A DNA stretch of 64,000 nucleotides from Tannerella serpentiformis (GTDB taxonomy: Bacteria > Bacteroidota > Bacteroidia > Bacteroidales > Tannerellaceae): the NCBI RefSeq assembly GCF_003033925.1, contig NZ_CP028365.1, positions 930,001 to 994,000 on the forward strand, written 5' to 3'. Positions within the stretch are counted from its first letter, which is position 1. Each line of letters starts with the position of its first letter. The position numbers and the translations under genes were made by a program. Below the pieces are notes generated by a model. It ran no database searches. It was not told the DNA's origin and was given only the letters and a program-made list of their open reading frames with translations. Of the stretch, positions 222 to 62,447 are shown in pieces.

Positions 222-399
222 GGCCGAATGTATTCCGTTTTCCATAACGCCACCCTCCCCCCCGTAACAATTTTCTCCCGAGGCGGCCCTGCGCGCTTAT
301 GATCTACAATCAAACGGGGTGAAAAACGACCGGCTTATATACCCGCAAAGCCTCTGAGAAAGGCTTGCCAGACGCCCCCTCCGGCGTGTGATCCGAGTC

Positions 400-770
400 G
401 GAGACTCCGAAAAGGCTGCGCAAGGCTTGCATGATCATTTCGGAGACTGTGAAAAGGCCGAGCAGGTGTTGCATAGTCACGCCGCACACTGTGAAAGGGC
501 TGTGCAGGTGTTGCATAGTCCCGCCACACACTGTGAAAGGGCTGTGCAAGGGTTGCATAGTCACGCCGCACACTGTGAAAGGGCCACGCAAGCGTTGCAT
601 GGTCGTTTCACACACTGTGAAAGGGCTGTGCAGGTGTTGCATGGTCATTTCACACACTGTGAAAGGGCCGCGCAAGCGTTGCATGATCGTTTCGCACACT
701 TTGCCGGTGCCACGCAGGTGTTGCACACTCGTTTCGCACACTGCGACGGCCTGTGCAAGGGATGAAAGAG
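400..770. repeat. 42-bp tandem array, family A (copy 1)
   Basis: About eight to nine copies of a 42-bp unit occupy the divergent gap between the proline dehydrogenase gene and the GLPGLI gene. The core is GCACACTGTGAAAGGGC, followed by a TGCA-rich segment and an ATAGTC or ATGGTC. CACACTGTG is a small dyad (CACA-C-TGTG); successive cores start at 485 and 527, exactly 42 bp apart. Outer copies are more diverged than central ones. The unit is a multiple of three and lacks stops, so long open frames appear on both strands; their His/Cys-rich 14-residue periodicity only reflects the DNA repeat. The same unit recurs inverted at 27.6-28.0 kb. Confidence 0.93.
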
Positions 771-869
771 ACCTTTCAGGATGGCTCCCAAACGGCTTCG
801 CAGCGTCCGGGAGATCATTTGAGGCTGAATGCATATCGCTATCTATGCACCCACTAACAGATATACAGT

Positions 870-1697
870 ATGAATACACGAATTCCAATCATTTGTCTAT
901 TGATGGCCGGCTGCATGAGCGTGTCGGCCCAGCACGCGGCGCAAGGGAAGTATGCGTGCATCTATGAGTACGACGTGAAAAGTGCGGACGGAAACGTCGA
1001 TCGGGGCACCACCCTGTTGCAGATCGCCGATGCCTTTGCGGTGTTCACGGATTATTCGGCCTTTCAGCTCGATTCGGTCGCTCGGCAGCCGGGCGCGTCG
1101 GAAGTGCAGCGGAAGGAGATGGAGGAACGGGTGGAGCGAAACGACCACTTTTTCGATCAAGCAGTCTATCAGAACGACCCGAGCAATCGCCTCACGGTGC
1201 ACAGCGTGATCGCCCCTTATCGATACACCTACGAGGAGAAGATCAACCCCATCGCTTGGCGCCTTGTGGACGAGGAGAAGGAAGTCTGCGGCTACCCTTG
1301 CAAGAAGGCGACCGGGACGTACGGCGGCCGCGAATGGATCGCGTGGTACGCCCCGGAGGTGGCCATCCCCTTCGGGCCTTGGAAGATCGTCGGGCTGCCC
1401 GGCCTGGTGATGGCGGCCGAAGATGCGGCAGGGGTGCATCGCTTCACCGCCATACAGTTTCGGGCCGCGTCGGGACCTGTCGTGACGGGCGAGCTGCCCG
1501 ATGAAATCAAGACGACGCGCGAGAAGTTCATCGAGGCCAAGAACCGTTTCGAGCAGAACCCCATGGCCAATCTGCCGCCCGAGGCGCTGTCGGACATGAC
1601 GATTCGCAAGAGGGAAGGCGGGCAAAAGTCAATCTTCGTCAACGGGGTGCAGCTGCGCATGCGGGCTAACGGATACACGCCGCTGGAAGTCGAATGA
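870..1697 (+). CDS. GLPGLI family protein, exported
   Basis: A 275-residue protein with a likely signal peptide (residues 1-21, cleavage near SVSA-QHAA). The family signature GLPGLV lies at residues 175-180, inside a conserved context (GYPCKKATGTYGGREWIAWY then IPFGPWKIVGLPG). GLPGLI proteins are Bacteroidetes-specific envelope proteins of unknown biochemical function. They are often encoded just before a carboxypeptidase-regulatory/TonB-receptor-like barrel, and that is the case here: the next gene overlaps this stop by 4 bp (ATGA). Translational coupling and a shared role are likely. The start at 870 gives a good signal peptide. Confidence 0.88.
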   Translation: MNTRIPIICLLMAGCMSVSAQHAAQGKYACIYEYDVKSADGNVDRGTTLLQIADAFAVFTDYSAFQLDSVARQPGASEVQRKEMEERVERNDHFFDQAVYQNDPSNRLTVHSVIAPYRYTYEEKINPIAWRLVDEEKEVCGYPCKKATGTYGGREWIAWYAPEVAIPFGPWKIVGLPGLVMAAEDAAGVHRFTAIQFRAASGPVVTGELPDEIKTTREKFIEAKNRFEQNPMANLPPEALSDMTIRKREGGQKSIFVNGVQLRMRANGYTPLEVE

Positions 1698-4285
1698 AGT
1701 GGCTCTTGTTCCTCGTCTTTGTGCTGACCGGAGCGCTTCCGCTCCGCGCCGGGCACACGTTACGCGGCACCGTCGCGAACGCCTCGGGCAAGGCCGTCGA
1801 GGCAGCCACGGTGGAAATCGTGGATCGCGATAAGACCATCGCCTATGCCTTTACCGATGCGCAGGGCGGTTACGTTGTCACGTATGAGGCCGACGCCGCG
1901 CAGCAGCTCCGGATCGTCGTCTCGCACCTCTCTTACGAAAAGCACACTGCGCAGATCAACGTCGGGGACAAGCGTCACGATGTGCGATTGAAGGACAAGA
2001 ACAAGTCCCTGCAAGAGGTCGTCGTCAAGGCCCCCGAGGTGTATCAGCGGGGCGATACGCTGAACTATCGGCTGAGCGCCTTCACCGGGGCGGCCGACTA
2101 TACGCTCAGCGATGCGCTGAAGAAGTTGCCGGGCGTGGAGGTGTCAGACGAGGGCGCCATCAAATACCTCGGGAAAGACATCTCCGACTTCTACATCGAA
2201 GGGCTGGATCTGCTCGGCGGGAAATACAACGTAGCCACGCAGAGCCTCCCCGCCGCGTACGTGACGTCCGTGCAAGTCCTCACGAACCATCAGCCGGTGA
2301 AGGTGGACGAGGCCGCGTTTTCTGACGATGTGGCGATCAATATCAAGCTCTCCAGACACGCCAAACTGCGGCCCGTCGGCACGTACGAGGCGACCGTCGG
2401 GCGAGGCGACAAGACGCGCTACTATCTCGCGGGGGCGGGCATGCTGTTCAATCCCGGCTTCCAGCTGCTGGCGGCCCTGAAGCTGGGCGATACGAAAGAG
2501 TTTGCCGAACAGGAGGGCCGCGATCATTTTGCGGACGACGCCTACACGCCCGTGGCTCGAGCGGTGTTGGGCGAGCTGAATGCCTCCCATCCCCCGATCA
2601 AACGGGAGCGATACATCTCCCCGCAAGACCATGCCTTGAGCCTGAACCTGATCCAAAAGCTGCGCCCCGAGGCCACGCTGAAGGCGAACGTGGGGTATGC
2701 CCACACCCGCACAGGGCACAGTTACGCCTCCGAACAACGCTTCCCCACCGACTCAGAGCCGATCACCATCGCCCAGCAGTATGCGCCCGACGTGGAGAGG
2801 CATCTGCCCTTCCTTTCGATGGAATACAAAGACAACCGCTCGAAGCGCTACCTCGTGAACCGCCTCACGGCCGGCGCTACGCTCCTGGATGCCTCGCTGC
2901 CGATGTCGGACGGCACGTGGGGCGCGTCGTTACAGCGTGAGAAGGGCCGCGAGGCCAACGTGGAGAACCGCTTCTCGGTGCGCTGGAAAAGTGAGAAGCT
3001 GGGCTGGGGACTCGCCTCGTTCGTCCGTTACAACCGCACGCCCGAGGGACGTCTCGACATCGCTACGAGCGACGGCGAACGCCTGACGCAACGGGCCACC
3101 GGTCGGCATTTGCTCGTCCGAACCACGCTCTCGGCTGCGTACGAGACGCGGACATCACGCCTCTACCTGCCGCTGACGGTGGACTATGGCGCGGACCGCT
3201 TGACGACGGCTTTGCAGCAGGATACCGTCGCGGCCGACAATCTCTTGGACGGCGCGTCGCTGCGCATCCTCCTCTCCCCACAATACGAATACACCCACCC
3301 GCTGCGGCGATTCATCTTTCGCGCCTCCACCACCCTGGGCGGCGTGTTCCAGGACTACATCAACCGGGGGAGCCTCCCCGCGACTTATCGGACGGGCCGA
3401 TGGACGGCCGCCCCGTCGCTTTACTTCTACTATGCGCTCTCGCCGCGATCCATCGTCCGGCTGCAGGGGGCGTATGCGGAGACGGACGGCGACTTGGCCG
3501 ACTTGCTCACCGCGCCCATTCGCAATCGCCTGACGTCCGAGCGGCGTGGCCTCGGCCTGCTCGCCCGTAGCCGCACGCTCTCCGCCCGGGCCGATTACGA
3601 CTTCAAGCTGCCCCTCGAAATGCTCTTTTGCTACGTCGGCGCCTCCTATGTGCAGCAGCGCAACAGCCTGATCCCATCGCTGGCGGTCAGTCCGCGGTTG
3701 ATCGAAGCGACGGCCCACTGCATGCCGCATCATACGCGCCACGCAAGCGTCTACTTCGGCGTCACCAAGCGCTTCCAGTCCATCGGGACAAAGGCGGCGC
3801 TCAACGCCGGCTTCACGCGCGGCCAGCAGGCGATGATCCAAAATGAACGGCTGTACAATTACCGACTGAGCACACTTTGGTTCACCCCGACCGTCGTCGC
3901 TAAGCCCTTCGGCGACCCCGTAGAGCTGGCCTACAGCTACCGCTTCGTCAAGACTTTCAACCGCATCCGCAGCGGCCGCACGTCGTCGCATCTCTCGCAG
4001 ACGCACGACATCCGGCTGCATCTCCAGCCCGCCGCGGCATGGCTCCTCACGGCCTCGTCCGACATCACCACCGAGGCCTGGCCCACCGGCCGCCCCGTCA
4101 CGGCCACCCTCTTCGACCTCGGCCTCACCTATCGCCACCGCGCCTTACGCCTCAGCCTCGACCTGCGCAACGTCTTCAACCGTCGGCATTACAGCTATTC
4201 GCTTTTCAGCGCCGTCAACACCTACACCTATAGCTATCGCCTCCGCGGCCGTGAGCTGTGGCTCACCGCTTCGCTCACGCGATGA
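1694..4285 (+). CDS. TonB-dependent receptor-like outer membrane protein with carboxypeptidase regulatory-like domain
   Basis: An 863-residue protein with a signal peptide (MKWLLFLVFVLTGALPLRAG). Residues about 20-105 form a CarboxypepD_reg-like beta-sandwich domain, and residues about 110-215 look like a plug (VVVKAPEVYQRGDTLNYR, then KKLPGVEVSDEGAIKYLGKD). The remaining about 640 residues have alternating aromatic and polar residues typical of a 22-strand barrel. No classical TonB box is obvious. It is translationally coupled to the upstream GLPGLI gene. Substrate is unknown; proteins of this class may be assembly or transport partners of the GLPGLI protein. The end (RGRELWLTASLTR) fits a last beta strand. 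Confidence 0.84.
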   Translation: MKWLLFLVFVLTGALPLRAGHTLRGTVANASGKAVEAATVEIVDRDKTIAYAFTDAQGGYVVTYEADAAQQLRIVVSHLSYEKHTAQINVGDKRHDVRLKDKNKSLQEVVVKAPEVYQRGDTLNYRLSAFTGAADYTLSDALKKLPGVEVSDEGAIKYLGKDISDFYIEGLDLLGGKYNVATQSLPAAYVTSVQVLTNHQPVKVDEAAFSDDVAINIKLSRHAKLRPVGTYEATVGRGDKTRYYLAGAGMLFNPGFQLLAALKLGDTKEFAEQEGRDHFADDAYTPVARAVLGELNASHPPIKRERYISPQDHALSLNLIQKLRPEATLKANVGYAHTRTGHSYASEQRFPTDSEPITIAQQYAPDVERHLPFLSMEYKDNRSKRYLVNRLTAGATLLDASLPMSDGTWGASLQREKGREANVENRFSVRWKSEKLGWGLASFVRYNRTPEGRLDIATSDGERLTQRATGRHLLVRTTLSAAYETRTSRLYLPLTVDYGADRLTTALQQDTVAADNLLDGASLRILLSPQYEYTHPLRRFIFRASTTLGGVFQDYINRGSLPATYRTGRWTAAPSLYFYYALSPRSIVRLQGAYAETDGDLADLLTAPIRNRLTSERRGLGLLARSRTLSARADYDFKLPLEMLFCYVGASYVQQRNSLIPSLAVSPRLIEATAHCMPHHTRHASVYFGVTKRFQSIGTKAALNAGFTRGQQAMIQNERLYNYRLSTLWFTPTVVAKPFGDPVELAYSYRFVKTFNRIRSGRTSSHLSQTHDIRLHLQPAAAWLLTASSDITTEAWPTGRPVTATLFDLGLTYRHRALRLSLDLRNVFNRRHYSYSLFSAVNTYTYSYRLRGRELWLTASLTR

Positions 4286-4410
4286 CGTCAGGCGTCGCCT
4301 CCATCGCTTGGGGAAATGCATGCAATTCCAAACAGCTTCTTGAGATCTACGTACGGGCGTTCTGCTCGCTCGTCGTTATGTCGCTTGGGAGGAGTCTCTG
4401 GGTCGAAAGC

Positions 4411-4912
4411 GACGCCAGAATGTCGCATGACGGAGCCGCTGGCACGCAGGCGCCTCAAAATGCCGCATGACGGAGCCGCTGGCACGCAGCGACGCCAAAA
4501 TGTCGCATGACGGAGTCGCTGGCACGCAGGCGCCCCAGAATGTCGCATGACGGAGCCGCTGGCACGCAGGCGCCTCAAAATGTCGCATGACGGGGCCGCT
4601 GGCACGCAGCGACGCCAGAATGTCGCTTGACGAGGCCGCTGGCACGTAGCGACGCCAAAAAGTCGCTTGACGGAGCCGCTGGCACGCAGCGACACCAAAA
4701 AGTCGCTTGACGGAGCCGCTGGCACGCAGCGACGCCAAAAAGTCGCTTGACGGAGCCGCTGGCACGCAGCGATGCCAAAAAGTCGCTTGACGGGGCCGCT
4801 GGCTCCCAGCGACGCGAAAAACTCGCTTGACGGGTCCGCTGGCACGCAGCGGCGCCAAAAACTCGCTTGACGAGGCCGCTGGCACCCAGCGACGCCAAAA
4901 AGTCGCTCGGGC
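4411..4912. repeat. 40-bp tandem array, family B
   Basis: Twelve units of exactly 40 bp begin at 4421, 4461, 4501 and so on to 4861, with partial units at both ends. The conserved core reads GACGGAGCCGCTGGCACGCA, followed by GCGACGCCAAAA or GGCGCCTCAAAA. CGCTG-GCACG-CAGCG is a dyad inside each unit. The left half of the array carries TGTCGCATGA and the right half AGTCGCTTGA, so copies have been homogenised in blocks. It separates the TonB-like gene from aspS. Long minus-strand open frames through it are by-products of three units making 120 bp. Confidence 0.95.
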
Positions 4913-5023
4913 GGGCCGACTCCTTGCGTCGAACTCACAATCTGAAAAAGGTCAGCGCCAGAGGGTGAACGGAAGTTTACGCGCTTGCGCCGATTCCGAC
5001 TGAATGACTTTCCCAAGCGGACT

Positions 5024-5031
5024 TATCTTTG
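5024..5031 (+). promoter_or_regulatory. Bacteroidetes -7 promoter box for aspS
   Basis: TATCTTTG matches the Bacteroidetes sigma -7 consensus TAnnTTTG and lies 41 bp before the aspS ATG. It is just outside the 40-bp array, so the array itself is probably not transcribed from this promoter. Confidence 0.6.
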
Positions 5032-5072
5032 GCGCCGCTTATCCAAAGACAATCATTACACATCATATTTAT

Positions 5073-6827: not shown

Positions 6828-6838
6828 CCGCACGCGCC

Positions 6839-7936: not shown

Positions 7937-7939
7937 CGT

Positions 7940-8788: not shown

Positions 8789-8814
8789 CCCCCGCGACTG
8801 ATCACCAAGAATTG

Positions 8815-12151: not shown

Positions 12152-12210
12152 GGGGTGGGGCGGATTATATAAAACGATTCTTTTGATCTGCTCCGGGGAG
12201 CCTAAAAGGG

Positions 12211-12556
12211 GCTTGGAAGTTTCTTCCTGGCAACCCCCAAGAGCATTTAGGTGCTTGGAAGTTTCTTCCTGGCAACCCCCAAGCGCTTGGAAGTGCTTGG
12301 AAGTTTCTTCCAGACAACCCCCAAGAGCATTTAGGTGCTTGGAAGAAACTTCCACGGGGCTAAAAGCACCGGGGGACCCTCTGGAAGAAACTTCCACGGG
12401 ACTAAAAGCACCGGGGGACTCTCTGGAAGAAACTTCCACGGGGCTAAAAGCACCGGGGGACCCTCTGGAAGAAACTTCCACGGGACTAAAAGCGCCGGGA
12501 GATCCTCTGGAAGAAACTTCCACGAGGCTAAAAGCACTCGGAGGCTCCCTGAGAAG
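12211..12556. repeat. 42-bp tandem array, family C, with an orientation switch
   Basis: Dyads of the form GGAAG-3 nt-CTTCC start at 12215, 12257, 12299, 12341, 12383, 12425, 12467 and 12509, each exactly 42 bp apart. The first three have TTT in the centre (GGAAGTTTCTTCC) and flank CCCCCAAG text. From 12341 on the centre is AAA (GGAAGAAACTTCC), followed by GGGGCTAAAAGCACCGG. So the array flips strand at about 12320 without breaking the 42-bp register. A final degenerate copy ends near 12556. It lies between ispH (minus, upstream) and the operon that starts at 12151. Confidence 0.95.
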
Positions 12557-15497: not shown

Positions 15498-15661
15498 GAG
15501 CAAAGCCCCCGGGGCAGCGGTGGGCCTCACCCTTAACGGACAAAGGCGCCAGGTATTTCCTTTCGGGGCTGAAAAGAGGGGCTCGGGAGGGGCGGTCGAG
15601 GGTCGTTGGGTGAATGATCGTGAGGCAACGGCGCCAACTAAGGATCAATGGAGGTGTTTCT

Positions 15662-15707
15662 TTGAGTAATTTTCACCGACGACCTGCCAACGGTGAAAAT
15701 TACTCAA
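15662..15707. repeat. 17-bp perfect inverted repeat at the edge of array D
   Basis: TTGAGTAATTTTCACCG (15662-15678) and its exact complement (15691-15707) flank a 12-nt loop. It would form a very stable hairpin. It is the first element of the 42-bp array that follows and shares its ACTC and AATT text, so it may be an ancestral or boundary unit. Confidence 0.9.
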
Positions 15708-15920
15708 GGAAATTCCTCCAAAAGAGGTCGGTTGGAGGAATTTACTCGGAGAAATTCCTTCAAAAGAGGTCGGTTGGAGGAATTTACTCGGAGAAATTCC
15801 TTCAAAAGAGGTCGGTTGGAGGAATTTACTCGGAGAAATTCCTTCAAAAGAGGTCGGTTGGAGGAATTTACTCGGAGAAATTCCTTCAAAAGAGGTCGGT
15901 TGGAGGAATTTACTCTGAGG
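15708..15920. repeat. 42-bp tandem array, family D
   Basis: Copies of a 42-bp unit; the GGAATTT half of each dyad starts at 15737, 15779, 15821, 15863 and 15905. Each unit has the nested dyad GGAATTT-A-CTC-G-GAG-AAATTCC followed by TTCAAAAGAGGTCGGTTGGA. Internal copies are virtually identical, which indicates recent expansion or homogenisation. The array lies between porQ and wbqC, both on the minus strand. Confidence 0.95.
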
Positions 15921-20671: not shown

Positions 20672-20844
20672 GTCCCCAAACCCCGCACGACGCGAACCTC
20701 CACCCCGCTTCGTCCTCCAAAAACGCACGCCATCGGCTTCGCCCGGATCGTGACACCCCCAAGCGTTACGCCATCGGCTTTTCCCGCCCTCAGGCAACCC
20801 TCAAAAACGAATGCGAAGCAAATGTCATGGACTTTCAACCAGAT

Positions 20845-21360
20845 GTTTTATTCATAGAAACTATATCCAAAAGTGTTTCCAAAGCGTTTATCTCATTGAC
20901 GGGATCTCCCATGTATTTTATCCCTATTTCTTTCTATTGACGCCTATTCAAAAAGTGATTTCATTCTGTTTGGATGCATATCCTTATGTAGAAATAGCTC
21001 GAAATCTCGTTTATGATCAAAAAAAGCTATCTAAGAGATATATCATGCTGTCTATGACAAAAACGAGCTGAATAAAATGTTTAGAAAATTATATCGATCA
21101 TAGACAAGGAGTAAAATGCGATATGCAGTTCATTTATGTCATGATCAGAATATAAAAATGAGTTACATACTTATTTTGATCGCGTACGGTATGTATAAAT
21201 GATTCTATAAGTTGTTTGTTTGATAGATAGTACCTATAAAACAAAAGTAAGGCTGTATGAAACAAAGACAGATCGAGTAATGTTTTAGACTTACTGTTTA
21301 TGATCAAAACAGTAAATGTAAGTTTTTGGATAGTATGTCTATGAATAAAACAGTGCCTTG
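20845..21360. repeat. Degenerate AT-rich array with about 41-bp spacing, family E
   Basis: A strongly AT-rich island in a GC-rich genome. Copies of a weak dyad (ideal form TTTATGATCATAAA) are centred near 20851, 20892, 20936, 20976, 21015, 21055, 21099, 21141, 21182, 21222, 21264, 21304 and 21343: thirteen sites spaced 39-44 bp. The best copy, at 21293-21314, has ACTGTTT and AAACAGT arms around ATGATCA. Sequence between the dyads is not conserved. No gene is supported here. It separates the small membrane protein from miaB. Confidence 0.65.
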
Positions 21361-21497
21361 AAGAATCACAGTTTTAGCCCTTGAGCCGTTTTTGGGGCCA
21401 TCACGGCGGGAGTGAAACCGATTGCGCGCGTTTTTCGGAGAGAGAGGCGAATGGGAAAGGCTGTCGCCTCGATCAATGGGAGATTCGGGTCGGCGGC

Positions 21498-26824: not shown

Positions 26825-27123
26825 TTAGAGGGTAGAGGGTAGAGGGTAGAGGGTAGAGGGTAGAGAGTAGAGGGTAGAAGCAAAACGAAAGAGAGCGTAA
26901 AGCATAAACACTCGACCATCCGACTCAACCCCCTATCCTCTAATCTCCCCCCTACCCTCTATCCTCTATCCTCTATCCTCTACCCTCTACCCTCTATCCT
27001 CTAATCTCTACCCTCCACTCTCTACTCTCTACCCTCTACCCTCTACCCTCTACCCTCTACCCTCTACCCTCTACCCTCTACCCTCTAATCTCTACCCTCT
27101 ACCCTCTAATCTCTACCCTCTAT
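26825..27123. repeat. Heptanucleotide microsatellite in two opposed blocks
   Basis: 26825-26879 is about eight copies of TAGAGGG. After a 52-bp unique spacer, 26932-27123 is about 26 copies of the complement (TACCCTC, with ATCCTCT and AATCTCT variants). The two blocks can pair into a long imperfect hairpin. The second block ends 4 bp before the folK ATG, so it forms the whole folK leader. Heptamer arrays change length by slippage. Confidence 0.95.
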
Positions 27124-27629: not shown

Positions 27630-27990
27630 CCTTGCGCAGGCCGGCGCAGTGTGTGATACGAGTGTGCAACACTTGCGTAGCCCCTTCACAGTGTGCGAAA
27701 CGACTATGCAACACCTGCGTAGCCCTTTCACAGTGTGCGAAATGACCATGCAACACCTGCACAGCCCTTTCACAGGGTGCGAAATGACCATGCAACACCT
27801 GCACAGCCCTTTCACAGTGTGTGGCGGGACTATGAAACACCTGCACACCCTTTTCACAGGGTGTGAAACGATCATGCAACACTTGCACCCCCTTTTCACA
27901 GGGTGTGAAACGACCATACACCCCTTGCGTAGCCTTTTCACGATGTGCGGCGTGACCATGCAACACTTGCAGGGAGTCTTGCAAGCATTT
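27630..27990. repeat. 42-bp tandem array, family A (copy 2, inverted)
   Basis: About eight copies of the complement of the unit at 0.4-0.77 kb: CTTTCACAGTGTGCGAAA, then a YGACYATGCAACACCTGC segment, exactly 42 bp apart. The dyad CACAGTGTG is shared. The same family is thus found 27 kb apart in opposite orientation, after folK and before the hydrolase gene. Confidence 0.94.
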
Positions 27991-38159: not shown

Positions 38160-38460
38160 CACGTTCGTATTTTGAACTCCTGAGGGGTCGGAGTACCCTT
38201 AACACGTTCGTATTTTGAAGTACCGAGCACTATTGTATGACAATACGGCAGGTATTTTGAAGTACCGAGTGGTAGGAGTGCAAAATTCGGTGCCGTATTG
38301 TCATGCTCCACCCCTCAGGAGTTCAAAATACCTGCCGTATTTTCAGTCACCACCCCTCGGCAGTTCAAAATACCTGCCGTATTGGCAGCCCCTACCCCTC
38401 CGCAGTCCCAAATACGAACCCGTCACGCCCCCTCCGCCCCCTCCGCAGTCCCAAAAACGG
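38160..38460. repeat. Cluster of short CAAAATAC-containing repeats
   Basis: Eight or so copies of a 20- to 25-bp motif: AGTTCAAAATACCTGCCGTA, or its complement TATTTTGAAGTACC, linked by CCACCCCTC or CCCCTCCGCAGTCC. They occur in both orientations and break off where the 173-bp tandem begins. No gene. Frames here repeat short words and are not credible proteins. Confidence 0.75.
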
Positions 38461-38494
38461 ACGTGACATTCCAGCCCCCATACCCGCCACCGTC

Positions 38495-39100
38495 CCCTTT
38501 CCGGGGACGCCTGATGGGGCGTATGCAATACGCCCCTACCCTGACGGACAAAAAACGAGAATCGGAGGCGTAAGGGCGTATTGCATACGCCCCACAATCG
38601 AGCACGATAGAGCCCGGATGATTCCCATAAATCACCCAACGAAATAACCGGGCACCCGCATTCATCCCCTTGTCGGGGACGTCCGATGGGGCGTATGCAA
38701 TACGCCCCTACCCATTCGGATGAAAACAATCGACCGGAGGTGTAGGGGCGTATTGCATACGCCCCACAAACGGGCACGGCAGGGCCCGATCGCCCCCAAT
38801 AAATCACCCTGCGACACAACCGGGTACCCGCCTTCGTCCCCTTGTCGGAAACGTCTGATGGGGCGTATGCTGTTGCGCCCTACCCTGACGGACAAAAAAC
38901 GAGAACCGGAGGCGTAGGGGCGTATTGCATACGCCCCACAATCAGGCACAATAGGGCCCGGACAACCCCAATAAATCACCCTGTGAAATAACCGGGTACC
39001 CGCCTTCATCCCCTTGTCGGGGACGTCTAATGGGGCGTATGCAATACGCCCCTACCCTGACGGACAAAAAACGAGAACCGAAGGCGTAGGGCGATGCCCA
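38495..39100. repeat. Tandem repeat of about 173 bp built on palindrome doublets
   Basis: Palindromes of one orientation start at 38516, 38688, 38860 (decayed) and 39032 (steps of 172); those of the opposite orientation at 38573, 38745 and 38917 (172). Each unit also carries a CCTTGTCGGGGACGTC segment, CTGACGGACAAAAAACGAGA, and GGGCCCGG..ATAAATCACC. Three and a half units in all. Translations of these units give recurring words such as GAYAIRPY and GVLHTPH, which come from the palindrome and are not genes. Confidence 0.92.
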
Positions 39101-39634: not shown

Positions 39635-40675
39635 ATGAAAGACGTTAAATCCATCTCTGGAATCAATCATCACTACCCGTTGGGTATGCACATTGACATG
39701 CAGGTGCAGCTGTACGACATACTACAGCCCGTCGCCCCTGCCAAAATCCTCTTAGACGCCGCTGATCTTCCCGCCTGGAAGTCCGACATCGACAAAGAGA
39801 AAGAGTCCGTCCGTGAGCCGTCAGCTTACGCGGAGACTAAGTATCTGAAAGAGAAAGACAAGAAGCGTGACGAGATCGTCACCTCCCTCTTCCAGGAGAT
39901 CCGCATGGCAGCTCGCTCGATGGTTGAGGATAGGCAGAAGGCGGGCCACCGCCTCTGCCTGATCGTAGACGCCTATAAAGGTCTGCAAAGCGAGAACATC
40001 GCCAACAAGACCGGTCACGTCACGGGCCTGCTGCTCGACCTCGGCAAACCGGAAGCCACAGCCGACCTGACGACCCTCGGGCTCGCCACCACCGTGCCTA
40101 TGCTCAAGAACATCAACGACGAGTTTGTCACCCTGCGCACCCAACGCCTCAAAGCCGAGGCCGAAGACACTCAGACCGCAGGCACCGACCTAAGAGCTAA
40201 GAACGACGCGACGGCCACGAAGATCTTCCGTCACATCGAGGCCGCCTACATCGCAGCTGCCTCAGACGAGGATCGGAAGTTAGTCGGTGATCTGATCGAT
40301 CGCATCAACACGGTCCTCAGCTACACCAAGACGCACTACAGCCAGAGCCTCGCCCTCAAGCGACTGGCTGCCGAGCGGAGGAAACAACCCAAAGACCCCA
40401 AGAAACCCAAGAAGCCCAAGAAGGGCACTGACCCCGAAATCCGTCTCCCGGACGACGGCCAACCCAAGACACCCGAAACGCCGAAGAAGCCAGAGGGAGG
40501 CGGCGGTGGCAGCGGTAAGCATCCCGAAGGCGGCGGTGGAGGCACCGGAGGCGGCGGTAAGCATCCCGAGGGCGGCAGCGGAGGCACCGGCGGAGGAGGT
40601 AAGCCCTCCGAAGGCGGCGGAGGAGGCACCGGCGGCAGCGGTGGCGGCCCCGAGATCCACCTCCCAGAAGAATAA
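39635..40675 (+). CDS. DUF6261-like protein with a glycine-rich C-terminal tail
   Basis: A 346-residue cytoplasmic-looking protein (no signal peptide). Residues 1 to about 245 are mostly alpha-helical with Lys/Glu/Ala-rich heptads and resemble Bacteroidales DUF6261 proteins (VKSISGINHHY start, then repeated helix pairs). A basic linker follows (KPKKPKKPKKGTDPEIRLPD). The last about 80 residues are near-perfect repeats of GGGGTGGGGKHPEGGS or KPSEGG, ending in PEIHLPEE; note that PEIRLPDD and PEIHLPEE frame the Gly-rich tract. Function unknown. The Gly tract is low-complexity and probably length-variable. It has its own promoter and lies in repeat-rich accessory DNA. Confidence 0.78.
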   Translation: MKDVKSISGINHHYPLGMHIDMQVQLYDILQPVAPAKILLDAADLPAWKSDIDKEKESVREPSAYAETKYLKEKDKKRDEIVTSLFQEIRMAARSMVEDRQKAGHRLCLIVDAYKGLQSENIANKTGHVTGLLLDLGKPEATADLTTLGLATTVPMLKNINDEFVTLRTQRLKAEAEDTQTAGTDLRAKNDATATKIFRHIEAAYIAAASDEDRKLVGDLIDRINTVLSYTKTHYSQSLALKRLAAERRKQPKDPKKPKKPKKGTDPEIRLPDDGQPKTPETPKKPEGGGGGSGKHPEGGGGGTGGGGKHPEGGSGGTGGGGKPSEGGGGGTGGSGGGPEIHLPEE

Positions 40676-41408: not shown

Positions 41409-41730
41409 GCCTTTTCTTGTGTCAAGACAAGAAAAGGAGGTGGGGGCTGGTGGGGGCTAGCCCCCACCCCGTAGTAGACGGAGGTTCCGGGCCCTATCGT
41501 TCCCGATCGTGGGGCGTATGCAATACGCCCCTACCCTGACGGTTCATGTTCACAAACAAGAAAAAGAGGTGGGGGCTGGTGGGGGCTAGCCCCCACCCCG
41601 TAGTAGACGGAGGTTCCGGGCCCTATCGTTCCCGATCGTAGGGCGTATGCAATACGCCCCTACCCTGACGGTTCATATTCATAAACAAGAAAAGGAGGTG
41701 GGGGCCGGTGGGGGCTAGCCCCCCACCCCC
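41409..41730. repeat. 129-bp tandem array carrying CTAG palindromes and REP cores
   Basis: GGGGGCTAGC starts at 41452, 41581 and 41710, exactly 129 bp apart. Each unit joins the CTAG palindrome, GTAGTAGACGGAGGTTCCGG, a REP-like core (41511 and 41640) and ACAAGAAAAGGAGG. Two full units and a third start; the last lies about 50 bp before the first lipoprotein gene. Confidence 0.93.
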
Positions 41731-45342: not shown

Positions 45343-45389
45343 CGTCCGTCAGGGTAACGCTGAAAACGTATGGGTTCAATTTTTGGGGC

Positions 45390-46480
45390 CGAACAGGTAG
45401 GGGCGTATTGCATACGCCCCTTCAGACGTTCCCGTCAAGGGAACGAACGTGCTTTTTTTGTTGTGTCGTTGGGTGATTTATTGGGGACTATCCGGGCACT
45501 ATGGTGCCCGATTGTGGGGCGTATTCAATACGCCCCTACCCTGACGGTCGAAAAAACATGATCATTTTTTGAACCCGTATGTTTTCAAGGTTCCTATTTT
45601 TCATCCAAATGGGTAGGGCGCAAAAGCATACGCCCCATCAGACGTTCCCATCAAGGGAACGGACGTGGTTTTTGGGTTGTGTCGTTGGGTGATTTATTGG
45701 GGACTATCCGGGCCCTATCGTACCCGATTGTGGGGCGTATTCAATACGCCCCTACCCTGACGGTCGAAAAAACAGGATCATTTTTTGAACCCGTATGTTT
45801 TCACAGTCCCTATTTTTCATCCGAATGGGAAGGGGCGTATCGAATACGCCCCATCAGACGTCCCCGTCAAGGGAACGAGCGTAAACACCCAGTTCTGCCG
45901 ACAATCACCCAAAGACAACCGCCCGGGCCCTATCGTACCCGATTGTGGGGCGTATTCAATACGCCCCTACCCTGACGGTCGAAAAAACATAATCATTTTT
46001 TGAAGCCATATGTTTTCAAGGTTCCTATTTTTCATCCGAACAGGTAGGGGCGTATTGCATACGCCCCTTCAGACGTTCCCGTCAAGGGGACGAACGTGGT
46101 TTTTTTGTTGTGTCATTGGGTGATTTATTGGGGACTATCCGGGCCCTATCGTGCCCGATTGTAGGGCGTATTCAATACGCCCCTACCCTGACGGTCGAAA
46201 AAACAGGATCATTTTTTGAACCCGTATGTTTTCAAGGTTCCTATTTTTCATCCGAATGGGTAGGGGCGTATTGCATACGCCCCTTCAGACATTCCCGTCA
46301 AGGGAACGAGCACCCGTATCCAGTTCCGCCAACAATCACCCCAAAGCAACCACCCGGGCCCTATCGTGCCCGTTCATGGGGCGTATGTTTTTGCGCCCTA
46401 CCCTGACGGTCGAAAAAACAAGATCATTTTTTGAACCCGTGCATTTTCCGCGTTATCCTAACGGATAAAAAAAAGGAACC
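45390..46480. repeat. Five-unit tandem array of about 216 bp made of palindrome doublets
   Basis: First palindromes start at 45400, 45615, 45832, 46047 and 46263; second palindromes at 45516, 45732, 45947, 46162 and 46378. Steps are 215-217 bp in both series. Each unit contains: palindrome 1, a CGTYCCCGTCAAGGGRACG hairpin, a linker, GGGCCCTATCGTGCCCG, palindrome 2, then CTGACGGTCGAAAAAACA and TTTTTTGAACCCGTATG. Cores at 45615 and 46378 are decayed on one side. No gene is hidden here; proteins predicted from it only read out the palindrome. Confidence 0.95.
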
Positions 46481-50591: not shown

Positions 50592-50909
50592 GATTGATGC
50601 GGAATGGATGTTAGGGGTTGATCTCATTTCAATTCATTCAACAGATGACCGTGCGAATGGTTCATTTCAGGCCATCATCATGGATGCCGGAGTCGTGTCA
50701 AGGTCAGCATCCGCGGCCGAGAGCGATCGCTCCGGGAAGTATGGTAGGCATCCATCTGACGATGCCCTCCCACTCGCCGCTTGTAGGGGAGAGTCCGCCG
50801 TCAATACGCTTAGCCCGACATAAACGGATGCGCTGTCAATGGACAATGGGCGTTGGAATACATATAGACCTCCATCGACTGTAAACAATAGATACCCATA
50901 TATGTTTCA

Positions 50910-51225
50910 CTCGCTTTTGTCTACAGACAAAACTGGCTTTCATATATCGCATAGCTTATCTACCATAGACAAAACACACGTATAGATATAAAAATAGCCA
51001 TTGTCCATAGACAAATCATATGTATAAATATAGACTAGCTTGTTGTCTATAGACGAAAGCACTTGAAATACATATTGCGCCATATTGTCTACGGACAAAA
51101 CATCTATTCATAGTTCACAGGCTATATCTGCCGCAGACAAAGCATGCGTATAGACATAAATAAGCCCGTTGTCCGTAGACAGAGAGATTCGAAATACGTA
51201 TTTCATCTCTTTGTCCATAGACAAC
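50910..51225. repeat. Degenerate 42-bp array of TTGTCYRYAGACAA dyads, family F
   Basis: Dyads centred near 50923, 50966, 51007, 51049, 51091, 51133, 51175 and 51217 (steps 41-43). Variants: TTGTCTACAGACAA, CCATAGACAA, TTGTCCATAGACAA, TTGTCTATAGACGA, TTGTCTACGGACAA, TTGTCCGTAGACAG. Between dyads the text is AT-rich (TATAGATATA, ATACATATT) and poorly conserved. The array lies between the M16 gene and the deacetylase gene, both minus strand. Two more units of this family occur at 58.23-58.29 kb. Confidence 0.85.
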
Positions 51226-51272
51226 GGGCTGTGAAATGTATGGATGAACCTTTTGTCGGGCGTAGTGACTAC

Positions 51273-53442: not shown

Positions 53443-53464
53443 CGTCAAGTAATCCCCCAGAACA

Positions 53465-54188: not shown

Positions 54189-54267
54189 TTACTCTTTCCC
54201 TAACAAGAGGGAGATCTCGTTCTTTCAGCCCCCCTTTTTAAGGCAAAGCGTTTCTCTCCGGGGTGTC

Positions 54268-54301
54268 GGCGTAAGTGTTTATCACGCTTACGCCTTTTTT
54301 A
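54268..54301 (+). terminator. Intrinsic terminator after the zeta pair
   Basis: GGCGTAAG, loop, CTTACGCC, followed by TTTTTT. About 80 bp after the small partner stop. Confidence 0.85.
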
Positions 54302-54354
54302 TGTCCGCACGGAGGCGAGATGGCCGATTATCCCGCATGTATGGGGGCGCATGA

Positions 54355-54628
54355 AGTGCTCCGACGGGCGTCGAAGGAGAAAACCCTCAGGGTTCACAGC
54401 TCCGACGGGCGTCGAAGGGGAAAACCCTCAGGGTTCACAGCTCCGACGAGCGTCGAAGGAGGAAACCCTCAGGGTTCACAGCTCCGACGAGCGTCGAAGG
54501 AGGAAACCCTCAGGGTTCATGGCTCCGACGGGCGTCGAAGGGGAAAACCCTCAGGGTTCACGGCTCCGACGGGCGTCGAAGGAGGAAACCCTCAGGGTTC
54601 GCGGCTCCGACGAGCGTCGAAGGAAGAG
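54355..54628. repeat. 41-bp tandem array, family G
   Basis: Nearly seven copies of a 41-bp unit: CTCCGACGGGCGTCGAAGG, then RGRAAACCCTCAGGGTTCAY. CCGACGGGCG starts at 54361, 54402, 54443 and 54484, each 41 bp apart. Two dyads per unit: CGACG-GG-CGTCG and AACCCT-C-AGGGTT. Two alternating subtypes (GGCGTC and GAGCGTC) are mixed. It sits between the zeta pair and a small membrane protein gene (convergent). Confidence 0.95.
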
Positions 54629-54632
54629 GACG

Positions 54633-54815
54633 CTACCGGTCCTTGTGCCGCCGATTCTTGTAGAGGGGCACGAAGACGATGACGCCCGAGGCGATGATGG
54701 TGAAGACGGTCATGAAGTCCACCGTCGGGCTGTACCGGAGGAGCATGTAGACCAAAAGGAACCACAGAAAAAGGATGCACACGGCTTGGGTGTTGCTGAT
54801 CTTACGACGGGGCAT
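54633..54815 (-). CDS. Small two-helix membrane protein
   Basis: A 60-residue protein (starts MPRRKISNTQ) with two hydrophobic helices (about 11-28 and 35-51) and basic ends (YKNRRHKDR). Positive-inside features at both ends predict both termini in the cytoplasm. Family not recognised. Its 3' end touches the 41-bp array. Confidence 0.72.
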   Translation of the reverse strand: MPRRKISNTQAVCILFLWFLLVYMLLRYSPTVDFMTVFTIIASGVIVFVPLYKNRRHKDR

Positions 54816-54859
54816 GATGAGGTACGTTTTGGAGTTGTTTACGAGGGATCGAAGAGAGG

Positions 54860-54940
54860 AATGTGTACCCTAAAGTGGGGTTTCGGGTACATATCGATGA
54901 GAATATGTACCCCAAAGTGGGGTTTCGGGTACATGTTGCG
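54860..54940. repeat. Two-unit 42-bp repeat, family H
   Basis: GTACCC starts at 54865 and 54907, exactly 42 bp apart. Each unit is a dyad: GTACCC(C/T)AAA, GTGGGG, TTTCGGGTAC. This is the shortest of the 42-bp arrays and sits between the small membrane gene and the Fic gene. Confidence 0.85.
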
Positions 54941-54952
54941 GAGACGAATCGA

Positions 54953-56083: not shown

Positions 56084-56093
56084 ACGGTTGAGA

Positions 56094-56972: not shown

Positions 56973-57023
56973 TTACTCATTTCAAATTACACGGCGGAAG
57001 GGGGAGCATGCTACATAATAAAC

Positions 57024-57063
57024 AGAAGAGCTACGGGGCTTTGCTGACTCTCGTAGCTCTTCT
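57024..57063 (-). terminator. Hairpin after fbp
   Basis: AGAAGAGCTACG (57024-57035) and its exact complement (57052-57063). It lies 22 bp beyond the fbp stop. The following T run is weak (TGTTTATTATG), so it is a probable rather than ideal terminator. Confidence 0.65.
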
Positions 57064-57084
57064 CTCTTTAATGGGCAGCGCGAA

Positions 57085-58098
57085 TCACTCGGGGGCGTTA
57101 CGCATGAACTCTTCCACCTTCTCGACCATCTTCCGACTGCCGCAGAAGAAGGGTGTACGCTGATGCAGCTCCGTGGGCTCGATGTCGAGGATGCGACGGA
57201 AGCCATCCGAAGCCTTACCGCCAGCCTGCTCCGTGAGGAAGGCCATCGGGTTGCACTCGTAGAGCAAACGCAGCTTGCCACGTGGCGATTGCGAGGTGGA
57301 GGGGTAGATGTAGATGCCCCCCTTGATCATGTTACGATGGAAGTCGGCCACCAGCGAACCGATGTAGCGCGAGGTGTAGGGCCGATTCTCCTCCTCCCGT
57401 TGGCAGTACTTGATGTAGTCCTTCACGCCCTGGGGGAACTTGATGTAGTTGCCCTCGTTGATGGAGTAGATCTTGCCGTCTTCGGGGAAGCGCATGTTGG
57501 GGTTGGAGAGGTAGTAGCTGCCCAGCGAGGGGTCGAGGGTGAAGCCGTTGACGCCGTTGCCGGTGGTGTAGACCAGCATGGTGGACGAGCCGTAGATGAT
57601 GTATCCAGCGGCCACTTGGTTCGTCCCCTTTTGCAGGAAGTCCTCCAGCTGCACGGGGGTGCCGGCGGGGGTGATACGGCGATAGATGGAAAAGATCGTC
57701 CCCACGGACACGTTCACGTCGATGTTTGACGACCCGTCCAGCGGATCCATCAGCACGACATACTTGCTCAGTTCGGCGTTAGCGCCGCTCCGAATCTCAA
57801 TAAAGTCGTCATTCTCCTCCGAGGCCACACCGCAGACCACCTCGCGCTGCGAGAGGGCATTGATAAAGATCTCGTTGGCGATGACGTCCAACTTCTGCTG
57901 TTCCTCGCCCTGCACGTTGCGGTTGCCCGCCTCGCCCAGCACGTTGGTGATACCCGCTTTGTTAATGAAGCGGTTCACCATCTTGGAGGCGATCTGGATA
58001 CAGCTGATCAAGCGGGAGAATTCGCCAGATGAATATTTGAAATCCATCTGCTTCTCGATAATGAACTCACCCAAGGTCGGTAAACTTTGCTCTTTCAT
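57085..58098 (-). CDS. fbp: Fructose-1,6-bisphosphatase, class I
   Basis: A 337-residue class I FBPase for gluconeogenesis. Metal-binding [11 protein letters not shown] and [23 protein letters not shown], and a C-terminal [29 protein letters not shown]. The ATG at 58098 ([13 protein letters not shown]) gives the family length; an upstream Met would add nine residues. It is divergent from groES across a 466-bp gap. Confidence 0.97.
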
Positions 58099-58224
58099 TT
58101 CGGTATTTTTTTGATTGCCGGGCAAAGAAGCGCCTTTTTTTCTCCATTGACAACTGTTAGCGGGATAAAAGCTCTGCGTCTTGGCTCATTGACATTCGTC
58201 GGAAGCCACACGTCGGCTTTTTCG

Positions 58225-58290
58225 ACGCTCTGTCTGTAGACAAATAGCTATTTATATGCGTTTCTCAGACTATTATCCGCAGGCAGAGGC
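58225..58290. repeat. Two-unit relic of array family F
   Basis: TGTCTGTAGACAAA (centre near 58236) and TTATCCGCAGGCAGAG (centre near 58278) stand 42 bp apart with AT-rich text between. Both resemble the 50.9-kb dyads. Confidence 0.55.
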
Positions 58291-58564
58291 TTGAAAAACG
58301 CCTTTCAGACGCCAGCGCCAATAGTCAATGAGTCGCGCGAAGCATTTCCTGACACATCGCCTCCGGAATACTGACACATTGTCCGACCTTCAACTGCGTA
58401 AACGACTGCAATATGACACGTGCACTCGCCGCAGACATCCGCAGCACAAGGCACGGGCAAGTTTGGCATGGTATTCGCAAGAAAGGGGCCGTGTCGCTCC
58501 TAAGCGAGGCGAGCGACAAGAGAAATGAACATCATAATCAGTAACAATAAATACAGGAACAATC
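58291..58564. other. groES upstream region
   Basis: No gene and no CIRCE operator (TTAGCACTC/GAGTGCTAA) was seen before groES, so HrcA control is not evident. No convincing TAnnTTTG box was found either; the promoter is unresolved. The stretch close to the start is AT-rich (CATAATCAGTAACAATAAAT). Confidence 0.5.
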
Positions 58565-58834
58565 ATGAATGTAAAGCCATTAGCAGACAGAGTGCTGGTT
58601 AAGCCAGCAGAAGCTGAAGAGAAGACGGCGAGCGGTATCATCATCCCCGACTCGGCCAAGGAGAAACCCCTCAAGGGCGAGATCATCGCCGCAGGTAAAG
58701 GCACAAAGGATGAGGAGATGGTGCTCAAACCGGGTGACCATGTGCTCTACGGCAAGTATGCCGGTACGGAGATCGAACTCGAGGGCACGAAGTACCTCAT
58801 CATGCGCCAATCGGACGTTTTGGCCATCATCTAA
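58565..58834 (+). CDS. groES: Co-chaperonin GroES
   Basis: An 89-residue Gro[16 protein letters not shown], the mobile loop [23 protein letters not shown] and [18 protein letters not shown]. Caps GroEL. It is 39 bp upstream of groEL. Confidence 0.98.
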
Positions 58835-58861
58835 ATCACAGAATCACAAACAAAAGAGTAA

Positions 58862-60514
<1,653 letters not shown>

Positions 60515-60577
60515 TCCATAGCCCTCAAGCCATCCCGAGAGAGAGACTTTTTCGTATTGAAATAAGTTGGTTCAGTA

Positions 60578-60623
60578 AGAGCTGCCTGCCGTGCTGTAAA
60601 GCGCTGCGGGCAGCTCTGTTTTT
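60578..60623 (+). terminator. Terminator of groES-groEL
   Basis: AGAGCTGCC...GGCAGCTCT stem around a 22-nt loop, followed by GTTTTTAG. It immediately precedes the left end of the MITE-like element. Confidence 0.8.
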
Positions 60624-60835
60624 AGAAGGCTGTTTGGAATTTATTTCGGGGGCTACCCTAGAGCATGTTTCTGATGATCTTGTTTCATCATTTGACGAGC
60701 ATAGCCAGCTCGTGTGAGGATTAATGATGGAACAAAAGGGCAGAAACAGGCCTCGATAGACCCGAAACAAGAAAGGAGGATCCGCCTAAGCAGCTCCATA
60801 AAACAATCACTCAATAAATTCCCAACAGCTTCTTA
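60623..60835. mobile_element. MITE-like palindromic element, about 213 bp
   Basis: The ends are imperfect terminal inverted repeats of about 23 bp (left TAGAAGGCTGTTTGGAAT..., right the complement of AATTCCCAACAGCTTCTTA). Inside, GTTTCTG...TTGTTTCATCAT pairs with ATGATGGAACAAAA...CAGAAAC, and ACGAGC pairs with GCTCGT at the centre. So the whole segment can fold into one long hairpin. No transposase is encoded. It fits a non-autonomous MITE, squeezed between the groEL terminator and the last codons of the lipoprotein gene. No clear target-site duplication was identified. Confidence 0.78.
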
Positions 60836-60841
60836 GGCACA

Positions 60842-61957
60842 CTATTTCTTCTTCAGTAGTGCCTCCAAGGCCCGACGCAGCTCAATGCCATTGTCTGTCT
60901 TGAGGACGATTGTCCCGCTACGATCGATCAGGAAGCAGCGGGGCAGTGCGTTGACGTTGTACGCCTCTAAGACACGGATGGACTGCCCAGCGGAGTCGGT
61001 GAAGACGTTCCAGTGTGTCGTGTCGGTACGCATTTGGCTACGCACGTCGCTTGGGGTCTCATCAAGGCTAACAAGAGCCACAGCGACGTCTTGGCGCGAG
61101 AAGTCGGCTTGGATCTTATCTAAGAGTAGCTTCTCCGTCTTGCAGAGGTCGCACCAGGCGGCGGTGAAGGCCAGCACTAAGTTGCGACCCGCGAAGGAGT
61201 CACGGGTGAGCGTCGCACCGTAGACATTGCGCAGGGTGAAGTCCGGCGCCTTAGCCCCGACCATGGTGTGCATAGCCCGCTCACAGTAAGCACGGAGGTT
61301 GCGCAGGGTACGCGTGTTCTCCAGCTTGGGACTGAGGGTGCCGATCATCTTTTCGGCACGCGTAGGGTCTTCGGGGTCGAGGATATAGTCGCGGATAAGG
61401 ATGGCTGAGGCCTCGTCTTTGGGGTGTTTATGGATGAAGTTTTCGGCCATCTGGGCCAGCTCATGGTCGATGTTAGCCAGCCGTGGAAGGTGTTCCGCCC
61501 GACTCGCCTCGGCGGCTCGTCCCGCGTCGGCCTCGGTGAGGGCAGCACCGGAGAGCTCCGTCTTCTCCTTGAGCAGCGTGGCAGCCTGCTTACGAAAGTC
61601 GGAGAGCAAGTCGTTGGTACGCGTACCCCTCACCTGTAGGGTAAGCGGATAGCGAGCGTCGCCGGTGACGGTGATCTTTCGTCCCGGCTCCAAATAGATG
61701 GTAATGCCCTCTTTATGATTCTCGAAATAGACCGTAAGCTGGTCGAACTGCCCCTCGTCGCGTGTGATCTGCACAGGCTTTCCAGGACGATAAACGACCG
61801 TGTCGACCTGCTTGTGGTCATCCGACTCAAACACGGCGTAAAGGTTCTGTGTCTCCAAGTTGGACAGATCCAACTCCACCCGGTAGGTCGCTTTTTCGCC
61901 ACATGCACACAGCAACCAGGCCACACAACTGATGATATACAACTTCTTTAACGGCAT
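60842..61957 (-). CDS. TlpA-like thioredoxin-fold lipoprotein with DUF4369 domain
   Basis: A 371-residue lipoprotein: lipobox LCAC (Cys19). Residues about 25-130 are a DUF4369-type beta domain, about 130-235 a helical region, and about 240-371 an AhpC-TSA/TlpA thioredoxin domain with the redox pair CxxC in AAWCDLCKTEK, then VNALPRCFLIDRSGTIV. Such proteins are periplasmic thiol oxidoreductases in Bacteroidetes. A -7 box lies about 20 bp upstream. Its stop codon is just 6 bp from the MITE-like element. Confidence 0.9.
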   Translation of the reverse strand: MPLKKLYIISCVAWLLCACGEKATYRVELDLSNLETQNLYAVFESDDHKQVDTVVYRPGKPVQITRDEGQFDQLTVYFENHKEGITIYLEPGRKITVTGDARYPLTLQVRGTRTNDLLSDFRKQAATLLKEKTELSGAALTEADAGRAAEASRAEHLPRLANIDHELAQMAENFIHKHPKDEASAILIRDYILDPEDPTRAEKMIGTLSPKLENTRTLRNLRAYCERAMHTMVGAKAPDFTLRNVYGATLTRDSFAGRNLVLAFTAAWCDLCKTEKLLLDKIQADFSRQDVAVALVSLDETPSDVRSQMRTDTTHWNVFTDSAGQSIRVLEAYNVNALPRCFLIDRSGTIVLKTDNGIELRRALEALLKKK

Positions 61958-61976
61958 CTTACGTGAAAATTTGCCA

Positions 61977-61984
61977 CAAAGATA
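61977..61984 (-). promoter_or_regulatory. -7 promoter box for the TlpA-like gene
   Basis: Minus strand TATCTTTG (TAnnTTTG match), 19 bp before the start codon. Confidence 0.65.
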
Positions 61985-62082
61985 GTGCGCTTTTCGGTGG
62001 AGTCGAAAAAGATATTAAAGGGAATATAGCGATATGATCGTATCGTAATGGCAGACCAAAGTGGCAGATTCGTACACGCAAA

Positions 62083-62116
62083 AAAGGCCGGGCACCCCTT
62101 CGGATACCCGGCCTTT
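62083..62116. terminator. Bidirectional-looking hairpin
   Basis: AAAGGCCGGG and CCCGGCCTTT flank a short loop; an A run precedes it. On the minus strand a T run follows. It could end the transcript of the BACON gene. Confidence 0.6.
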
Positions 62117-62335
62117 CCGAAGCCTCGGAAACGTTCAGCGGCGTGTTTTGAGCCTTCCGACGCGTCGGAAACCCTCAGCGGCGCGTTTTTGAGCTTTCCG
62201 ACGCGTCGGAAACGTTCAGCGGTGTGTTTTTGAGCTTTCCGAGGCCTCGGAAACCTTCAGCGGCGCGTTTTTGAGCTTTCCGACGCGTCGGAAACGTTCA
62301 GCGGCGCGTTTTGACACTTTCCGAGGCCTCGGGGG
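62116..62335. repeat. 41-bp tandem array, family I
   Basis: Six units; TCCGA starts at 62116, 62156, 62197, 62238, 62279 and 62320 (40-41 bp apart). Each unit has a dyad TTTCCGACGCGTCGGAAA or its variant with GAGGCCTC in the centre, then CGTTCAGCGGCGCGTTTTTGA. The two dyad versions alternate. Located between the TlpA-like gene and the BACON gene (both minus). Confidence 0.94.
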
Positions 62336-62447
62336 CGTCTACGGACGCCCCGTTGAATTGTTGGTTTGTTGGGGCCCGGGGGCCCGTTTGATGTTGGTTT
62401 GTTGGGGCCTTGCAGCCCGTTGGTTTGTTGAGGTGGGTACCCGTGTA

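Follow-up and report, generated by a model that had tools for sequence, protein, structure and literature searches.

The closest described systems are the minisatellite-bearing miniature elements of Porphyromonas gingivalis, a member of the same order. MITE464/PgRS, a miniature inverted-repeat element, contains tandem direct repeats of 41 nt in about 10-20 copies, whereas BrickBuilt is a minisatellite placed between a leader and a tail, with inverted-repeat ends, variable copy numbers, predicted stem-loops and an invariably intergenic location; its 23-nt units form one family with 19 copies, or 0.44% of the genome (PMC4596501). The repeats of this species fall at 22, 23 and 41 nt, and the same source describes such elements as peculiar to P. 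gingivalis and closely related species, each element type having a single unit family. Here we analyzed a 64-kb stretch of Tannerella serpentiformis DNA (the window, G000:C1:930001-994000) within a complete genome of 3,013,500 bases, for which an earlier note had claimed a window-wide class of intergenic tandem arrays with units of 40-42 bp. This class is real and far larger than the window, and a subset of the arrays is carried by miniature elements that derive from an insertion sequence (IS) and are bounded by terminal inverted repeats (TIRs). Genomes are labeled G### (G000 is the genome under study) and fetched DNA stretches L###.

Abundance and placement of the arrays

The genome was sampled by the window plus 40 further 20-kb stretches, 39 of them at even spacing and one picked on a match, together 864 kb or 29% of its length. 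Tandem arrays were called with Tandem Repeats Finder (TRF, score of at least 50) and collapsed. This gave 118 arrays with periods of 40 (5 arrays), 41 (57), 42 (52) or 43 bp (4). Their mean period of 41.47 bp corresponds to 10.37 bp per turn at four helical turns. The remaining collapsed arrays comprised 83 with periods of at most 36 bp and 27 with periods above 43 bp, 17 of which lay near multiples of 42. The 40-43-bp peak was visible from two-copy arrays upward, and units were contiguous, with no spacers between them; a CRISPR array was rejected, as unique spacers are lacking. Non-genic arrays with a period of 39-44 bp or multiples thereof and a score of at least 100 numbered 125 and occupied 33,947 bases, equal to 3.9% of the sample and roughly 18% of its intergenic bases. 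Linear scaling extrapolates to some 400, about 430, arrays in the whole genome.

Arrays were found in 98 of 207 gaps of at least 250 bp. Where TRF detected none, the pooled autocorrelation of the gaps still had maxima at lag 42 (z 4.9) and lag 84 (z 3.7). Of the 107 array-free gaps tested, 15 had a significant best lag, at 41-43 or 84-86 in 12 cases and at 23, 25 and 60 in the others. This residual periodicity represents decayed arrays. The genome-wide excess at 40-42 bp that had been proposed as a check on the class was thus seen, at 40-43 bp, in the sampled 29%.

Genes were predicted with a simple codon-based caller, which assigned 77% of the sample as coding. The arrays had been said never to occur inside genes; with 114 of the 118 outside predicted genes, this holds as a depletion that speaks against an accident of the window, but not as a strict rule, since four were genic (e.g. 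40496-40642), two of them (L033 11364 and L038 3223) in low-scoring, doubtful predictions. Flanking genes could be assigned for 114 of 131 arrays and were tandem in 69, divergent in 26 and convergent in 19 cases, proportions similar to those of all gaps longer than 200 bp (155, 48 and 33). This indifference to the orientation of neighboring genes makes a terminator or promoter class unlikely. Accordingly, we consider it highly improbable that the arrays are terminators or transcript-end elements, as had also been suggested. Inverted repeats do occur within the units, and the array at 62113 stands after an ordinary terminator-like hairpin (by eye), but a hairpin can do without complementary inner pairs.

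Carrier elements bounded by terminal inverted repeats

Comparison of flanks within unit families showed that 8 of 62 same-family pairs, from 5 of 20 families, were alike beyond the array. Two of these led to miniature elements bounded by the TIR TAACGTGAGTTCGAYG, with 0 to about 13 units of 40-42 bp between the ends. The sequence TAACGTGAGTTCG occurred 45 times at up to one mismatch, compared with once for the reversed control. Among 20 loci fetched by a TIR match, three of which (L248, L263 and L266) overlap stretches already sampled, 15 contained a 40-42-bp array and 5 did not. Inspection of nine TIR pairs by eye revealed two recurrent types of end segment, ~60-80 bp long and shared by seven of them, and no consistent target duplication longer than TA; many element ends have a TA directly before the inner ACGTGAG. 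The shortest pair, at L255, has TIR starts 118 bp apart, and no array was found in it. Different unit families occupy the same TIR frame.

At L256 2431-3446, the same TIRs enclose a decayed copy of a gene that matches PF13612 (E 2e-27), which we take to be an IS982-type transposase. The genome holds 14 PF13612 matches, some of which are fragments of one gene. An IS630/Tc1-mariner element had been considered as the mover on account of the TA beside the TIR; the single PF13358 match (13.9 kb) contains stops and has no TIR match nearby, and this candidate was dropped once the PF13612 gene was found. A TIR (at most 2 mismatches in 12) lay within 250 bp of 10 of 125 sampled arrays versus 2 of 173 array-free gaps, so that a carrier is shown for a minority. 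The earlier note had proposed, among other options, a repeat family with some unknown means of copying. This was borne out in part, and for the subset the likely mechanism is carriage by IS-derived miniature elements.

The TIR is common in several species of the genus and was present in 30 of 41 genomes, with 40 matches at up to one mismatch in this genome, 46 in G004, 26 in G041, 21 in G010, 18 in G016 and 17 in G015. Among the TIR matches listed, seven (five in G041 and two in G046) lay no more than 120 bases from where a contig starts and were all oriented as if the contig began inside an element, which fits arrays breaking short-read assemblies in the way reported for IS and miniature elements of P. 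gingivalis (PMC5771137). Family- and TIR-specific searches also found contig ends inside arrays or elements, and all three further matches in G033 were at contig starts. A general enrichment at contig ends in close relatives was rejected, as such arrays were absent from all 20 contig starts examined in G031, G033 and G014. These observations suggest that short-read assemblies of the genus break at such elements, whose number would then be underestimated there. The sister species G014, G031 and G033 have GroEL proteins 93-94% identical to that of G000; the G+C content is 57.7% in the window and 46% in the sampled G014 stretches.

Unit families, dyads and the origin of the unit length

The sampled arrays, 126 with multiples included, fell into 83 sequence clusters. 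The units had been described as unrelated, which is largely but not entirely the case: the arrays at 409 and 27647 belong to one family in opposite orientations, with a third locus near G000:2406737. No common recognition sequence spans all families. A strong dyad center (the center of a two-fold symmetric segment) was found in 33 of 72 family representatives, compared with 8.4 in shuffles, and 25 of the 33 were centered on a base pair. The former claim of one or two dyads per unit is thus supported in part; when units were taken singly, the best dyad reached p < 0.05 against dinucleotide shuffles in 18 of 72, and two strong centers were rare (four pairs in 72 units). Unit length is kept while sequence is not, as had been proposed, and roughly half of the families also keep the dyad. 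Units of 42 bp show a second rise in symmetry at a distance of 21 bp from the main center, and half-unit direct similarity within 41-42-bp units is at most weak. Dyads were kept amid diverged spacers at 50.9 kb, where a TTGTC(4)GACAA-like dyad stays in register over eight 42-bp rows, five of which passed the dyad threshold; L031 and L043 show the same pattern less distinctly.

On balance, we lean towards a joint reading in which the arrays are minisatellites of the kind borne by miniature elements, with dispersal in trans, core replacement and a length kept by phase. Units would be dispersed when the PF13612 transposase moves a carrier in trans, while most other arrays would have had older or different carriers with decayed ends, or would have been seeded by units alone. 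At one locus, copy number differs by whole units between two sister species, an array in G014 being 294 bp (7 × 42) longer than its counterpart in G033, barring a possible assembly collapse; some arrays persist in a decayed state. The palindromic core may be swapped as a block within the 41-bp frame. Such block replacement is indicated by an array in which two different cores have almost identical flanks, and it would make families look unrelated while their length persists. In the array at 62113-62332, the palindrome centers are either ACGCGT or AGGCCT, each symmetric. The least certain part concerns phase: sites with two-fold symmetry, if spaced by two or four turns, would present the same helix face to a putative dimeric DNA-binding protein, and arrays out of phase would not be kept, giving a length near four helical turns. 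The helical phase invoked in the earlier note is supported in part: it is in line with the mean period, the 21-22-bp arrays of the genus and the symmetry rise at 21 bp, but not with the genic 42-bp repeats.

Several results weigh against this joint reading. On the side of the dyads, 39 of 72 families have no strong center, few are significant singly, two-centered units are rare, and an AA/TT signal at 6.9 bp (z 5.4) rivals that at the helical harmonic (z 4.4). The 42-bp repeats in four predicted genes, two of them doubtful, are not predicted by a binding-site model. On the side of the carriers, 54 of 62 same-family pairs have no common flank above threshold, 115 of 125 arrays have no recognizable TIR within 250 bp, and 24 of 120 arrays had flanking inverted repeats of any kind that exceeded the 95% null level, with 6 expected. 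The end segments of L250 and L252 are unlike those of the other seven TIR pairs, and none of the PF13612 matches listed spans the profile without a stop, which leaves present-day mobility unproven.

The rival explanations are not mutually exclusive. In one of them, which we regard as unlikely but deserving of serious attention, a replication or recombination process makes tandem duplications of ~21 or 42 bp anywhere it acts, with intergenic arrays being tolerated and dyads acting as hot spots. Genes showed an autocorrelation excess at lag 42 (z 5.3) and none at lag 41 (z 0.1), as if frame-breaking units were purged, but also one at lag 12 (z 4.9). Among 13 genic arrays with a score of at least 100, period 42 was the commonest (4), whereas at a score of at least 50 (n = 35) periods 21 (10) and 18 (6) outnumbered it (4, two of them doubtful). 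Nine arrays of fewer than 2.3 copies already had periods of 41-43 bp, and the gap upstream of aspS contains one unit in G033 versus 5.8 in G014, which represents either an earlier state or assembly collapse. Distant loci with common units and the TIR-bounded elements require dispersal and count against a duplication process as the full account; the genic 42-bp repeats and the dyad-less families, in turn, count against phased dyads. Phased dyads and a 42-bp duplication bias are rival candidate causes of a unit length near two or four turns, and both have support.

Somewhat less probable still is descent alone from one ancestral 41-bp satellite, in which the original sequence was lost through substitution and core replacement, whereas length was kept because indels are rare in homogenizing arrays. 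A shared hidden flank model placed 38 of 72 families, and the same TIRs hold different unit families, but 34 of 72 families did not fit the model. Outside this genome, 5 of 22 arrays reached p < 0.05 (uncorrected), namely the three G014 arrays tested (L140, L181 and L197), L224 and L060 19737; four of seven arrays of 41-42 bp and five of six of 21 bp from the genus were not significant. The 21-22-bp arrays of the genus and the P. gingivalis repeats share the length classes, which also counts against descent alone.

Of 27 genomes, 7 have an array of period at least 20 in the gap preceding aspS, namely this one and six other species of the genus, with periods of 40, 41, 41, 21, 21, 23 and 29 bp and differing unit sequences. 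Along with the dyads kept amid diverged spacers and the many long gaps occupied, this would suit platforms of host function, in which selection keeps the arrays as helically phased sites for a putative nucleoid or insulator protein between transcription units. We think this improbable: in 13 of the 27 genomes, the 640 bp upstream of aspS contain neither such an array nor the end of a contig (7 of 27 have a contig end there), array density is far lower in the fetched assembled stretches of relatives, no recognition sequence is common to all families, and HU-HIG proteins are not expanded, with 3 matches here against 1-10 in 20 other species, so that such an expansion was rejected. AspS itself is 82% identical to that of Parabacteroides, and AspS-like matches with 37-38% identity occur in open frames of ~1100 residues in G015:C109, G018:C280 and G037:C138.

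At 80 other Bacteroidales loci (1.32 Mb), 20 arrays with a period of at least 12 outside long open reading frames had periods of 21-24, 32-33, 40-42 or 66 bp; a smaller order-level set (274 kb) gave 20, 21, 23, 23 and 27 bp, a poorer fit to the length classes. Arrays of 21 bp, half of the unit length here, with 9-14 copies were seen in species of the same genus (L139 17823, L153 11849, L184 7436 and L194 11995). Sharing of units across genera (Hallella L112 with L046, score 17) was not counted as significant over 36 × 126 comparisons. We tentatively propose, as a possibility that may well prove wrong, that intergenic minisatellites of Bacteroidales follow a sequence-independent length rule, with units of roughly 21-23 bp (two turns) or 40-43 bp (four turns), set by a putative machine that binds or duplicates DNA, measures dyads on one helix face and would have built and rebuilt the extrapolated 400 or so arrays of this genome. 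If so, the rule would parallel that of nucleosome-sized satellites in eukaryotes.

Features of the window and comparison with known systems

Seven of the eleven array sites listed in the earlier note were clear tandem arrays by TRF (Table 1). Three weaker ones, at 20.8, 50.9 and 54.9 kb, stood up in best-lag tests against shuffles (p 0.003, the test floor), and the one at 58.2 kb did not (p 0.49). A scan of lags 15-139 showed long periodic segments at 40-42 bp and multiples, as well as 7-bp arrays and 85/129-bp repeats. The left end at 15633-15708 is present at three of the four loci of its family, and an array related to that at 54358-54624 occurs at L025 12930.

Table 1. Repeat features of the window (positions within the 64-kb stretch)
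Feature	Position	Strand	Evidence
42-bp array, 8 copies	409-757	+	TRF: 409-743 at period 42, to 757 at period 126
40-bp array, 12.5 copies, upstream of aspS	4408-4907	+	TRF
42-bp array, 3.3 copies	12207-12345		TRF
42-bp array adjoining the preceding one, 4.7 copies, GGAAGAAACTTCC dyad in unit (by eye)	12340-12537		TRF
Left end common to the 15709 family, including a long-stem unit	15633-15708	+	Flank comparison
42-bp array, 5 copies, 98% matches	15709-15919	+	TRF
Decayed A+T-rich array, best lag 41	20820-21385		Best-lag test, p 0.003
42-bp array, 7.7 copies, 409 family in reverse orientation	27647-27971	-	TRF, family comparison
42-bp array, 3.4 copies, overlooked earlier	38274-38415		TRF
42-bp repeat in well-scoring predicted gene, 14-residue Gly-rich repeats	40496-40642	+	TRF
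Decayed 42-bp array	50903-51238		Best lag 42, p 0.003
41-bp array, 6.5 copies, pair of dyads spaced by ~20.5 bp (by eye)	54358-54624		TRF
42-bp unit, two copies	54855-54945		Best lag 42, p 0.003
Array claimed earlier, best lag 42, not significant	58215-58325		Best-lag test, p 0.49
41-bp array, 5.4 copies	62113-62332		TRF

Larger tandem repeats at 38481-39091, 41427-41729 and 45389-46440 have periods of 172, 129 and 216 bp, near multiples of 43, and contain the palindrome GGGGCGTATTGCATACGCCCC or a close variant. Two heptamer arrays, 26826-26878 (TAGAGGG, 7.6 copies) and 26944-27122 (TCTACCC, 25.6 copies), share the same gap downstream of queA; among tandem repeats of prokaryotic intergenic regions, heptamers are reported to be the most abundant (PMC6344855). 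NCBIfam matches included type IX secretion system (T9SS), GLPGLI and SusC-like proteins, which together with the AspS identity place the genome in Bacteroidales. Rfam gave no match in the window at gathering thresholds.

A palindromic repeat with 31-36-bp spacing occurs at 62333-62425 and, alike by eye, at L017 2807-6168. In L017, these repeats surround the genome's sole Y1 transposase (G000:1380004) and form a candidate for a system of repetitive extragenic palindromes (REPs) and a REP-associated tyrosine transposase (RAYT). REPs and bacterial interspersed mosaic elements are short palindromes, 20-40 bp long, that lie outside genes and may occur in clusters (PMC3733652). As an account of the arrays, REP/RAYT was rejected: the single Y1 transposase (PF01797) lies in a stretch without a 40-43-bp array.

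The BOX elements of Streptococcus pneumoniae combine fixed end modules with variable tandem middle modules, as here, and their mobilization in trans by an IS has been proposed (PMC3049150). They belong to another phylum, however, and boxB is one module family. Among the literature matches listed, in which subscription journals are thinly covered, no genome-wide 41-42-bp class with unrelated sequences was reported, and passages of PMC6344855 and PMC4060949 that deal with periodic prokaryotic repeats do not mention one.

In P. gingivalis, the left TIR of MITE239, ACGTGAGTTCGAT (Table 2 of PMC4596501), matches the TIR found here. MITE239 and MITE700 apparently lack mini- or microsatellites in that account, whereas here this type of TIR bounds arrays, and the same source places the matching insertion sequences in IS5, while the TIR-enclosed gene here matches PF13612. 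In contrast to BrickBuilt, the units measure 40-43 bp, form 83 clusters within a 29% sample and occupy a larger share of the DNA; the GAGACC-type TIR pattern gave 2 matches versus 3 in the control. The 41-nt unit of MITE464/PgRS resembles that of the 57 arrays with period 41, but its TIR GAGACTGTTGCA was not enriched, GAGACYKTTGCA had 2 matches versus 3 in the control, and MITE464/PgRS is one unit family where dozens are found here. Minisatellite-bearing miniature elements were thus already known, and what is new is a single genome with dozens of families on one 41-bp length frame, with similar length classes in other species, which makes it testable what fixes the unit length of a bacterial minisatellite if not its sequence.
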